From the NCBI RefSeq assembly GCF_900090325.1, contig NZ_FMHW01000002.1, forward strand, positions 3,100,001-3,164,000: a stretch of 64,000 nucleotides of DNA, given 5' to 3'. The notes below the pieces were generated by a model that was not told where the DNA came from, searched no databases, and saw only the letters and a list, made by a program, of their open reading frames with translations. The DNA is from Micromonospora pallida. Lineage in GTDB: Bacteria; Actinomycetota; Actinomycetes; Mycobacteriales; Micromonosporaceae. A program made the translations under genes and the position numbers. Shown here piece by piece: positions 5,559 through 23,619 of this stretch. Position 1 is the first letter of the stretch, and each line of letters starts with the position of its first letter.

Positions 5559-7097
5559 TCAGAACGGCCACTGGTCGCGGGACCCGGCCTCGATGAGCGG
5601 GATCATCGCGAACGCGGCGTCGGAGAGACCACCGAACGTGTGCCGGTTCCCGACGGTCGGCGCGTGCCCGATCCGGTATCCCGCCAGGTTCCAGGTGTAC
5701 ACCGGAACCTGCGCGGGCACTGCGGCCGCCACGTCCGCCGACCCGTGCCAGTGCGCCTGCTCGTCGGTGAGGATGACCACCCGGTCGTGCCCGTCGTAGT
5801 GGTTCCGGACCGCCTTCTCGGTCTCGGTCCCACCGCCGTAGAAGTAGCCACCGTCCTTGAACCGGCGCACGCCCGCCAGCACCGACTCCCCCGCCACCGC
5901 CGGGAACACCCGGGTGGCGTTGGAGAACGACACCACCGTCGCGTGCTGCGCGCGGGCGGCCAGCGCGAGGCCGAACACGGTGGCCGCGTCCCAGCAGCGC
6001 AACGTCCCGTCCTTGCTGAACGCGCTGTTCATCGACCCGGACGTGTCGATCAGGACCAGCGTCCGACCGTCCAGCGCCGGCACGTTGGCCAGCGCGTGCT
6101 GCAACGCCTTCTCCAGCGGGTACCCCCACCGCAGGCTCGGCGCCGCGTTGTACGCCGACAGGAAACGCATCGGCAGTACGCGCGACCGCGCGACCTCGCC
6201 CGGGTCGGACAGCTTCGCCGCCACCTGCTCGGCGACGGCGTCGCTGACCCCGGCCTGGTCGAAGTTGCGCAGGTTACGCAGCAACGCCAGGTAGCCCATG
6301 GTCGGGATGATCGCCTCCCACGCCGCCGCGTCCATGATGGTCTGCCGCCAGCCGGCGAGGGCCTCCCACGTCATGCCGGCCGCGCCGAGCACCGCCGGGT
6401 CGGTGACCTCCCGACGCCGCTCGACCGGCAACGCCATCAGCTCGGCCCGCGCCGCCAACATCCGCAGCGACTCCGGTAGCGGGTTGTCGCGCTGGTGGCG
6501 CCGGTCCAAGGCGTGCCGGAACAGCTCGCCCTGCCGCTCGTCTTTCGCCTTCGGGTGGGTCAGGTCGACGACGTCACCGAACCGCACCGCACTGCGCTCG
6601 GAGTCGTACTTGAGCAGGCTGCGCTCGTGGTACAGCCGCACCACGGCGTCCGCGATGCCCCGCTTGACCGGCTTCGGCAGCGCCCGGCTGTGCCGTCCCA
6701 GCCAGTACGCCAGCGCTTCGCCCGGCTCGTCGGCACGCTGCAACGCGGCGTCCACGGTCGACCGGGAACCCGGCACGCCCGCCGCGACCTGCGCACGGGC
6801 ACCTTCCAGGGCCGCCACGACCGACGCCGAACGCAGCAGCGCGCCGGTCCGCAGCCACGGCACGAACCGGCCGAACCACTCGGGGTCGGCGACCGCGACA
6901 GTGGCGATCAGCTCACGGAAACGGGCGTCCCGCGCCGCGGCGCCCTCGTAGAAGGTGTCCTCGCCGACCATGTTCGACACGGCCAGCAGGAACAGCTCGG
7001 CACGCGGCTCACGGGCGAAGCCCGGTGCGCCCTCGGCGGTCACGATCGTGTCGGCCTCGGGCCGATTCCGCCGAAGCGTGAAGTTGAACTTGGCCAT
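5559..7097 (-). CDS. rsr: Ro60/Rsr orthologue (TROVE-vWA RNA-binding protein)
   Basis: A 512-residue protein. Residues about 1-340 form the helical TROVE ring (start MAKFNFTLRRNRPEADTIVT; later FYEGAAARDARFRELI, FGRFVPWLRTGALLRSASVV and MGYLALLRNLRNFDQAGV). A vWA domain follows, with an intact MIDAS motif VLIDTSGSM near residue 350 and later ILTDEQAHW. Ro60 rings bind single-stranded ends of structured RNAs through the hole and Y RNA on the outer surface; in Deinococcus the orthologue Rsr works with PNPase and a Y RNA in RNA decay. Four Y-RNA-like genes lie directly upstream on the same strand, the nearest ending about 38 bases before this start, which strongly supports the call. A G-rich GGGGGG site precedes ATG 7097. 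Confidence 0.95.
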   Translation of the reverse strand: MAKFNFTLRRNRPEADTIVTAEGAPGFAREPRAELFLLAVSNMVGEDTFYEGAAARDARFRELIATVAVADPEWFGRFVPWLRTGALLRSASVVAALEGARAQVAAGVPGSRSTVDAALQRADEPGEALAYWLGRHSRALPKPVKRGIADAVVRLYHERSLLKYDSERSAVRFGDVVDLTHPKAKDERQGELFRHALDRRHQRDNPLPESLRMLAARAELMALPVERRREVTDPAVLGAAGMTWEALAGWRQTIMDAAAWEAIIPTMGYLALLRNLRNFDQAGVSDAVAEQVAAKLSDPGEVARSRVLPMRFLSAYNAAPSLRWGYPLEKALQHALANVPALDGRTLVLIDTSGSMNSAFSKDGTLRCWDAATVFGLALAARAQHATVVSFSNATRVFPAVAGESVLAGVRRFKDGGYFYGGGTETEKAVRNHYDGHDRVVILTDEQAHWHGSADVAAAVPAQVPVYTWNLAGYRIGHAPTVGNRHTFGGLSDAAFAMIPLIEAGSRDQWPF

Positions 7098-7135: not shown

Positions 7136-7287
7136 CCACACCGCATACCCGAGATCAGAAGTCGACGACGGACTAGTCCGCTGCTCTGTCCGCTTGAGCT
7201 ATCAGCCCGAAGGCTTCGGGGGACTCGAACCCCCAACCTGCGGATCCGGGAAGTAACCGTTGCCTGCGCACCGGGTATGCGGTGTGG
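7136..7287 (-). ncRNA. Y RNA with permuted tRNA-like module (YrlA type), copy A
   Basis: About 152 nt. The ends pair perfectly over 15 bp (7273-7287 with 7136-7150). Inside is the shared Ro-stem motif, 5-prime CCCGGUGCGCAGGCAACGG and 3-prime CCGUCGUCGAC...CUGAUCUCGGG. The centre is a tRNA mimic in permuted order: anticodon-stem strand UCCGC (7240-7244), variable region, T-arm with 7-base loop UUCGAGU (7218-7234), an acceptor stub capped by a UUCG tetraloop (7204-7215), D-arm (about 7181-7201) and anticodon-stem strand GCGGA (7177-7181). This is the arrangement known for YrlA Y RNAs, where the closed acceptor replaces the tRNA ends and the anticodon stem opens into the Ro-binding stem. It lies 38 bases before the rsr start. 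Confidence 0.88.
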
Positions 7288-7288
7288 T

Positions 7289-7386
7289 CGCGCCTCCCGA
7301 GTTCAGAATCCGGTGACGGACGGACTCTTCACCGGGGTCGTGGACCCCTCCAAGATGTAACCGTCACCTTCGCACCGGGAAGTGCG
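7289..7386 (-). ncRNA. Y RNA without tRNA module, copy B
   Basis: About 98 nt, directly upstream of copy A. It has the conserved 5-prime strand CCCGGUGCGAAGGUGACGG and 3-prime strand CCGUCACCGGAUUCUGAAC followed by UCGGG. GGUGACGG pairs perfectly with CCGUCACC, and the outer stem pairs CGCACUUCCCG with CGGGAGGCGCG. The interior holds only a small hairpin (GGGGUC-CAC-GACCCC), with no D-arm or T-arm. A promoter at 7393-7422 would start transcription at its 5-prime end. Confidence 0.8.
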
Positions 7387-7392
7387 GGTCCG

Positions 7393-7422
7393 ACGTTAGT
7401 GGCGGCCACAGTGGCCGGGCAA
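7393..7422 (-). promoter_or_regulatory. Promoter for Y RNA pair B-A
   Basis: Reading leftward, TTGCCC (7417-7422) and TAACGT (7393-7398) are separated by 18 bases. The -10 box ends about 6 bases before the 5-prime end inferred from the Y RNA stem. The layout matches the promoter before copy D. Confidence 0.6.
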
Positions 7423-7461
7423 CGGAGTTTGTCGTCCTGTGATCATGGACGAGAACAACAG

Positions 7462-7611
7462 TCACGCCGCATGCCCGAGATCAGAAGTCGACGACGGAGA
7501 GTCTATTGCTCTGCCACTGAGCTACCAGCCAGCACAGGCTGGAGGGGATTCGAACCCCCGACCCATAGATTACGAAGTATCCGTCGTCTGCGCACCGGGC
7601 ATGCGGCGTGA
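7462..7611 (-). ncRNA. Y RNA with permuted tRNA-like module (YrlA type), copy C
   Basis: About 150 nt. The ends pair perfectly over 15 bp (7597-7611 with 7462-7476), with base differences from copy A that keep pairing. The Ro-stem is CCCGGUGCGCAGACGACGG with CCGUCGUCGACUUCUGAUCU then CGGG; GACGACGG/CCGUCGUC is 8 perfect bp. The tRNA mimic has an anticodon stem (UCUAU 7565-7569 with AUAGA 7502-7506), a T-arm with loop UUCGAAU (7544-7558), an acceptor stub CCAGCC/GGCUGG closed by 6 bases (7525-7542) and a D-arm containing GGUAGCUCAGUGGCAGAGC. Different T, D and anticodon stems from copy A with the same fold argue for selection on structure. Confidence 0.88.
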
Positions 7612-7612
7612 G

Positions 7613-7684
7613 AACTTCCCGAGGTCACCAACGGCGACGGTATTTCGTAAGAGGAAGGAACCGTCACCTTCGCACCGGGAAGCG
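7613..7684 (-). ncRNA. Minimal Y RNA, copy D
   Basis: About 72 nt, first in the array. The outer pairing is CUUCCCG (7676-7682) with CGGGAAG (7615-7621). The conserved 5-prime strand CCCGGUGCGAAGGUGACGG pairs with CCGUCGCC using one G-U. The interior is a short unstructured loop. A promoter ends 7 bases upstream and copy C begins 1-2 bases after this stem closes. Confidence 0.75.
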
Positions 7685-7691
7685 CGGCAAC

Positions 7692-7720
7692 AGCCTACGC
7701 ACGACGATCTTGAGTGGCAA
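7692..7720 (-). promoter_or_regulatory. Promoter for Y RNA pair D-C
   Basis: Reading leftward, TTGCCA (7715-7720), a 17-base spacer and TAGGCT (7692-7697). The expected start falls about 7 bases on, at the 5-prime end of copy D. Read-through could also reach copies B and A and the rsr gene. Confidence 0.65.
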
Positions 7721-23270: not shown

Positions 23271-23386
23271 CACGCCGCAGAACCGAGATCAGGGTCGGAC
23301 ACGGCGTCAGCGGGTTCGAACCGCAGGGCCTCACAGGCCCCATACCAGAGAAGTGGCCGTGTCCTTCGCACCGGGTATGCGGCGCG
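23271..23386 (-). ncRNA. Y-RNA-like gene E (orphan locus), with T-arm
   Basis: About 116 nt. The ends pair as CGCCGCA (23378-23384) with UGCGGCG (23273-23279). It shares CCCGGUGCGAAGGACACGG, and the inner stem GGACACGG (5-prime side, from 23357-23364) pairs perfectly with CCGUGUCC (from 23297-23304), a compensatory version of the stem in the Ro60-linked copies. The 3-prime motif CUGAUCUCGG is retained. Inside are a hairpin GGGCC-UGUGA-GGCCC (23326-23340) and a T-arm GCGG-UUCGAAC-CCGC (23310-23324), but no clear D-arm. Confidence 0.7.
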
Positions 23387-23388
23387 CG

Positions 23389-23546
23389 GGCGCCTCCCGA
23401 GACCAAAGCGGCGACGGCGACTGGCCCTTGCGGGCCAAGGTGACCTGGGCCGCTGGTCGACACCGCCAGAGGCGGCGGCGGGATTCGAACCCGCGGCTCC
23501 CCGTTGGGAGCGGAAGTAACCGTTGCCTGCGCACCGGGAGGTGCCG
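23389..23546 (-). ncRNA. Y-RNA-like gene F (orphan locus), with permuted tRNA-like module
   Basis: About 158 nt. The outer stem pairs GGCACCUCCCG (from 23535-23545) with CGGGAGGCGCC (from 23389-23399). The Ro-stem 5-prime strand CCCGGUGCGCAGGCAACGG is identical to copy A, and the 3-prime strand is CCGUCGCCGCUUUGGUCUCGG. The tRNA mimic has a canonical T-arm GCGGG-UUCGAAU-CCCGC (23478-23494), a 7-bp acceptor stem CGCCGCC/GGCGGUG capped by UCU (23461-23477) and a D-arm GACC-AGCGGCCCA-GGUC (23442-23458). An extra GGCCC-GCAA-GGGCC hairpin (23423-23436) and a CUCCC/GGGAG hairpin are added where copies A and C have a simple anticodon stem. Gene E starts 2-3 bases after its end. Confidence 0.78.
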
Positions 23547-23619
23547 CACGAACGGTATGGCAGTTCCCCGCACATTAGGAAGGCAAAATGTTCCGGCCGC
23601 TGGTGAACGGCAGGAGTGA

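Follow-up and report, generated by a model that had tools for sequence, protein, structure and literature searches.

A Ro60 gene of Micromonospora pallida accompanied by Y RNA units with a common stem and different heads, some of them permuted tRNA mimics

The 64,000-nucleotide stretch of the Micromonospora pallida genome analysed here (the window; G000:C2:3100001-3164000 in our numbering) encodes one Ro60 orthologue and six minus-strand Y RNA units, which share a stem and carry at least four kinds of head, among them permuted tRNA-like folds. The common stem, the different conserved heads, the tRNA fold and the linkage to Ro60 recur in actinobacterial relatives. The best reading of this arrangement, which we consider moderately probable, is that one Ro60 uses exchangeable Y RNA adaptors with a constant docking stem and variable heads.

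Passages of PMC8394870 and PMC9879122 describe YrlA as a modular RNA of 90-150 nt: its stem tethers Rsr, and DusA and TruB modify its tRNA-like domain. According to the same sources, PNPase is bound by both Rsr and YrlA, and YrlA tethers Rsr to this enzyme. In Salmonella, two Y RNAs belong to an RNA repair operon, as reported in parts of PMC7790460 and PMC9879122.

Results

The Ro60 gene and its four adjacent Y RNA units

The Ro60 gene (5559..7097, minus strand) encodes 512 aa with a TROVE domain (Pfam, E 8.8e-15) and a von Willebrand A domain, for which the VWA_2 match is weak (20.5 bits, cut-off 27); both domains align to the "TROVE domain-containing protein" of PDB 9L5Y/9KOP (E 2.7e-30). 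It is the only Ro60 match in the 7.76 Mb genome and had no match in PADLOC. For comparison we used 80 named actinobacterial Ro60 loci from 19 genera, which are the best 80 of 295 encoding a relative and a sample biased to close relatives. The protein is 80-91% identical to its counterparts in 14 of the 15 Micromonospora loci among them, and 56% identical to that of the fifteenth (L092).

Four minus-strand units (A to D) lie directly upstream of Ro60, as originally predicted, and the helices quoted in that prediction are present in the sequence. The helix changes from unit to unit while mostly remaining paired: it is GGUGACGG/CCGUCACC in B, GACGACGG/CCGUCGUC in C, GGUGACGG/CCGUCGCC in D, and GGCAACGG/CCGUCGUC in A, the last with one A.C mismatch and one G.U pair. 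The order in the direction of transcription is D, C, a promoter-like element, B, A, and the Ro60 start codon, which lies 42 nt beyond the end of A. D and C nearly abut, as do B and A, so each pair would form a single precursor.

Direct reading bears out that A and C contain a T arm, a closed acceptor, and a D arm in permuted order. Unit A (7140..7283, minus strand; class I, slot 4), assigned by alignment and Rfam, is a YrlA-type permuted tRNA mimic with an A15-U48 pair. Unit C (7466..7607, minus strand), assigned by Rfam and folding, is a mimic of the same type with an anticodon-like stem of its own (AATAG/CTAT) and a G15-C48 pair; it folds singly as predicted (z -4.74), and its class is also present in loci L020 and L025. 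Unit B (7288..7387, minus strand; class II, slot 3), assigned by alignment, carries a conserved G-rich hairpin head and no tRNA-like part, and unit D (7610..7687, minus strand; class III), located by motif, is a minimal Y RNA composed of a stem and a small loop only (z -2.91). The predicted mixture of minimal and tRNA-like forms is thus real, but of the two units without a tRNA-like part only D is a bare stem-loop. Units A and B did not reach the expected fold when folded singly (z -1.18 and -1.59), and we therefore take their structures from alignments.

Rfam had no match at curated thresholds anywhere in the window, and ARAGORN found no tRNA at the array or in the window. Against the Rfam YrlA family (RF02553, gathering score 69 bits), C scored 52.3 bits and A 41.4 bits; such sub-threshold matches prove little alone because 7 of 14 control genomes have them too, while none has a match above the cut-off.

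Two further units 16 kb upstream of the array

An Infernal search with a covariance model (R1, built from alignment A2 of 12 class I/C units) recovered A, C, and B, the latter (E 1.7e-8) presumably through the common stem, and found two more units, E and F, on the same strand 16 kb upstream of the array. The four units of the original prediction hold, and the set in the window is larger, at six. Unit D was not among the R1 matches at E up to 10. Unit E (23274..23383, minus strand; class V, E 3.9e-9; z -2.72 on folding) consists of a hairpin and a T-arm-like hairpin without a D arm, and its terminal stem is damaged. Unit F (23389..23545, minus strand; class IV, E 6.6e-9) is a permuted tRNA mimic with a tRNA-Glu-like D arm and a GNRA hairpin. 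All six units have a stem of 5' and 3' ends with the common core and pairing; the permuted T arm, closed acceptor, and D arm stand on this stem in A, C, and F and are not found in B, D, and E. The acceptors of A, C, and F are not followed by CCA, no anticodon loop is present, and the ends run into the Y stem on direct reading, so these three units are not tRNA genes.

Units A to D are encoded directly beside Ro60, whereas E and F stand apart from it in the window but belong to classes that lie directly before the array, upstream of Ro60, in many relatives. The interval between E-F and the array in the window holds other genes, among them sugar-metabolism genes as judged by eye from the translations. 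A promoter-like remnant precedes F-E (TTGCCT and TACCGT, 23552..23586, minus strand, by direct reading); its hexamers are 23 nt apart, compared with 17 in L020, L022, and L023 by our count by eye. Because of this abnormal spacing and the damaged terminal stem of E, the E-F pair may be decaying or dead.

Y RNA arrays at the Ro60 loci of relatives

We scanned 157,964 bases upstream of the 80 named loci and 1,333 bases of the window with a strict unit finder, which requires the core plus seven or more pairs in the terminal stem and overlooks some units. It reported 191 units in 76 of the 81 loci, with 1 to 6 per locus; a few units, 160-270 bases long, are probably spurious or result from merging. 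In three control sets, each of about 158,000-160,000 bases, it reported 6, 9, and 5 units. The five loci without a unit include L021, which has only 202 bases upstream, and L060 and L086, which show units by eye. Of the 191 units, 135 have a T arm, whereas 20 mononucleotide shuffles gave 1.8 of 191 on average; 100 units have a closed acceptor and a D arm besides the T arm, and 56 have no T arm. Full tRNA-like and T-arm-less units occur together in 34 of the 76 loci, from 10 genera, so the mixture seen in the window is recurrent, and three Catellatospora loci have T-arm-less units only. Some Catellatospora genomes possess two Ro60 loci (L033/L040, L034/L039, and L043/L041), and in L039-L041 the finder sees only T-arm-less units, mostly minimal ones.

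The fullest array in Micromonospora consists of two promoter-led pairs, four slots in all: class IV followed by class V or C, and then class II followed by class I, ahead of Ro60. Upstream sequence is available for 14 Micromonospora loci, and the Glu-like class IV occurs in 12 of them (nine by the set margin and three as close variants). Thirteen of these loci were examined for the other classes (L092 lies outside this sample): class II, with the head of unit B and many invariant head bases, is found in 9 of the 13, and class V in 8. Slot 3 of L030 is reduced to the bare core.

Ro60 is encoded by 15 of 61 genomes of the genus. Under Infernal's stricter filters, R1 has matches in 14 of the 15 Ro60-positive genomes (the miss is G025) and in none of the 46 Ro60-negative genomes (Fisher 6.7e-13, phylogeny ignored), and this co-occurrence, together with the single Ro60 of the window genome, substantiates the predicted tie between Y RNA-type units and one Ro60 gene. 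No neighbour ORF of at least 140 aa within about 4 kb on each side of the loci, besides Ro60, is common to three or more genera; Ro60 is therefore the only constant partner seen, and gene order indicates no further one.

Pairing in the stem and in the tRNA-like fold

The outer stem helix, scored at its best placement within a 26-nt stretch for own and swapped partners alike, forms 7.14 of 8 pairs with its own partner and 6.39 of 8 with swapped partners (0 of 300 shuffles; kinship ignored). The anticodon-like stem, scored at fixed offsets, forms 3.43 of 5 pairs with its own partner and 2.42 of 5 with swapped ones (0 of 1000 shuffles; kinship ignored). Paired changes between relatives are also seen in alignments. 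RNAalifold obtained the fold for class I/C (12 units, including A), with both-side changes in 14 of 40 pairs, and there are both-side changes in 5 of 49 pairs of class IV (F type, nine relatives), 7 of 38 pairs of class V (E type, eight relatives), and 3 of 26 pairs of class II (B type, ten sequences), again with kinship ignored. These alignments (A1-A4) hold only units with cleanly placed boundaries; among the units omitted are slot 4 in L022, L024, and L027 and the class IV units in L020, L023, and L031.

The 100 full tRNA-like rows gave 97 parsed heads, 94 of them unique (L049 and L097 each have an overlapping longer duplicate of one unit), and the tertiary 15-48 pair is G-C in 59, A-U in 35, and mixed in none, with a parser that requires A or G at position 15 and ignores position 48. 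Under looser criteria, a scan of the 2 kb upstream gave 124 hits in 74 loci, some of them outside units, for which the 15-48 pair was printed for the 39 non-generic hits and not for the 85 generic ones. Eight of these 39 have a mixed pair; they lie mostly outside units, several of them far from any unit.

tRNA types of the heads

We compared the D arms of the hits with 81 distinct tRNAs predicted by ARAGORN in the window genome. One common D arm accounts for 85 of the 124 hits. Another type, TCG[AT]CCAGYGGCC.AGG[AT]C, comes closest to the tRNA-Glu of the window genome and occurs by the set margin in 16 units from Micromonospora, Saccharothrix, Nonomuraea, Thermocatellispora, and Planotetraspora; four more units are close variants (L022, L024, L026, and, in Amycolatopsis, L086). 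The D arm of Thermocatellispora L079 is identical letter for letter to that of the window genome's tRNA-Glu. By the same margin, 11 of the 74 loci that gave a hit contain both the Glu type and the common type.

Planomonospora and Nocardia have rarer D arms that are about equally similar to tRNA-Leu and tRNA-Gln; a firm Gln-like or Leu-like label was dropped, as the two tRNAs of the window genome score about the same. In Nocardia (L070 and L072), the last unit before Ro60 has a variable region and D arm that by eye resemble those of a tRNA with a long variable arm, possibly Leu-like, an assignment that is not secure.

Two groups of tRNA genes elsewhere in the window genome came to our attention. 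Four genes with near-identical bodies and different anticodons lie 1-3 kb left of the window start (L140, G000:C2:3097096-3099094); they score 39-59 bits, and one is a Ser(gct) on a short variable loop. A tRNA array with 26 Rfam tRNA matches in 3.2 kb lies at G000:C2:6513900-6517500 (L135).

Promoter-like elements

Matches to the promoter consensus precede both pairs of the array. P1 (TTGCCA-17-TAGGCT, 7692..7720, minus strand) stands before D-C and P2 (TTGCCC-18-TAACGT, 7393..7422, minus strand) before B-A-Ro60; they end 13 and 14 nt ahead of the D core and the B core, respectively. Across all loci, on a looser list of 297 cores, a promoter-like element precedes 47 of 168 first-of-group cores, hence a minority of groups; the figures for second cores and for control positions are 6 of 129 and 72 of 4050.

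Permuted tRNA-like RNAs downstream of DUF7873 genes

The Rfam YrlA model also touches G000:C2:13584-13693 (36.5 bits), a site downstream of a DUF7873 gene that has no Ro60 core. The gene (PF25283) and its permuted tRNA-like RNA occupy G000:C2:12636-13700 (L100 8636-9700), and further examples are among L151-L188. Such RNAs follow DUF7873 in Micromonosporaceae relatives and in phages of Gordonia, Arthrobacter, Rhodococcus, Rhizobium, and Klebsiella. The succession T arm, closed acceptor, D arm was found downstream, on the strand of the gene, in 25 of 30 DUF7873 loci of the family (L165 is of doubtful quality). A stricter scan of these 30 loci and eight phage loci, in which ten loci with minus-strand genes were mis-oriented, gave 23 hits in 22 of the 38 loci and none on the other strand. 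The 15-48 pair of the 23 hits is A-U in 20, G-C in 3, and mixed in none, and 15 of them have CCA no more than 6 bases beyond the acceptor strand. A hit is present in six of the eight phage loci (not L185 and L188), and six of eight have annotated tRNA genes within 1.5 kb. The Rfam YrlA model touches five of six DUF7873 loci, always below the cut-off. A link of these RNAs to Ro60 was considered and dropped, as those read have no CCGGTGCG core. The name DUF7873 is not used in the literature searched. From their sequences, these RNAs seem to form another family of permuted tRNA mimics that is linked to a protein.

Discussion

The permuted tRNA mimic itself is not new; it is the known YrlA architecture as given in RF02553 and in passages of PMC8394870. 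YrlA (RF02553; Salmonella structure 6CU1, as cited in PMC8394870) has the same Rsr/Ro60-binding stem and the same permuted T arm, closed acceptor, and D arm, and its gene likewise adjoins Ro60. The arrays described here differ from it in having several kinds of unit side by side, with A and C below the Rfam cut-off, and a second class of mimic with a tRNA-Glu-like D arm and a GNRA hairpin; the genes stand upstream of Ro60 in promoter-led pairs, and no RtcBA was seen beside them. The Salmonella rsr-yrlBA-rtcBA operon also has more than one Y RNA per Ro60, but, as far as the accounts in PMC7790460 and PMC9879122 go, these are two Y RNAs downstream of rsr and accompanied by an RNA ligase and a cyclase, whereas here up to six units lie upstream and no neighbour is common to three or more genera. 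The tether to an RNA-processing enzyme is borrowed from the Deinococcus RYPER complex (Rsr-Y RNA-PNPase), as outlined in parts of PMC8394870 and PMC4726728; the corresponding partner here is putative. In the literature searched we found neither an array of several slots with exchanged heads, nor a Glu-type class bearing a GNRA hairpin, nor pairs of units led by promoters, but primary Y RNA papers may already describe such arrays.

If Ro60 does work with exchangeable adaptors, all units would dock on the single Ro60 through the common stem (CCGGUGCG...ACGG / CCGUC...CUCGG). They would be transcribed as promoter-led pairs, D-C on its own and B-A jointly with the Ro60 mRNA, and the paired units would be cut apart between their adjoining terminal stems. 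Each Y RNA may then gate the RNA-binding surface of the ring-shaped Ro60 while its head brings a different partner. The tRNA-like heads may recruit proteins that read the tRNA elbow and acceptor (YrlA of other bacteria binds PNPase and is a substrate of TruB and DusA), and D and B would give a Ro60 particle without such recruitment. More tentatively, and with some doubt on our part, actinobacterial Ro60 might draw on a range of Y RNAs with heads that mimic the common, the tRNA-Glu, and rarer Leu/Gln-like types; these would guide Ro60 to different tRNA-handling machines or let it shield them, with the minimal Y RNAs as an empty adaptor.

The order of the halves in A, C, and F is also that of permuted tRNA genes in other organisms. 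That the units are such genes, or tRNA-derived integration sites, and not Y RNAs is nevertheless very improbable and already disfavoured: the missing CCA and anticodon loop and the negative ARAGORN result speak against it, and it leaves the outer stem and the linkage to Ro60 unexplained. The position of B and A between P2 and the Ro60 start codon, with A ending so close to it, would suit leader elements by which Ro60 controls its own mRNA. We regard this as improbable, since D-C have a promoter-like element of their own, E-F lie far from the gene, and a leader operator has no need of tRNA-like heads.

The heterogeneity of the heads could also have arisen by decay, with only the YrlA-type units functional and B, D, and E being duplicates kept by chance beside Ro60. 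The damage to E and to the F-E promoter in the window, the bare core in slot 3 of L030, and the retention of A as the unit nearest Ro60 fit this idea. We consider it unlikely, given the recurrence of B with its many invariant head bases, the T-arm-less units standing alongside tRNA-like ones in 10 genera, and the three Catellatospora loci in which T-arm-less units occur alone. Alternatively, the tRNA-like heads might be decoys that soak up tRNA-attacking enzymes or nucleases, with Ro60 merely stabilising them. Two D-arm types inside one array would be in keeping with decoys, and YrlA has been proposed, in the part of PMC7790460 that treats it, as a competitive inhibitor of an anticodon nuclease. 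Without an anticodon arm, though, the heads offer anticodon nucleases no site, and neither a neighbour gene common to three or more genera nor a PADLOC match for Ro60 points to such a role, which makes this explanation somewhat unlikely.

We favour exchangeable adaptors on one Ro60. The head-swapped arrays on a constant Ro60 handle occur in culturable species of Micromonospora, Nocardia, and Streptomyces and offer ready-made variants that bear on the role of the tRNA-like domain of bacterial Y RNAs. If the adaptor model is true, exchangeable RNAs would retarget an RNA quality-control protein in a modular way.
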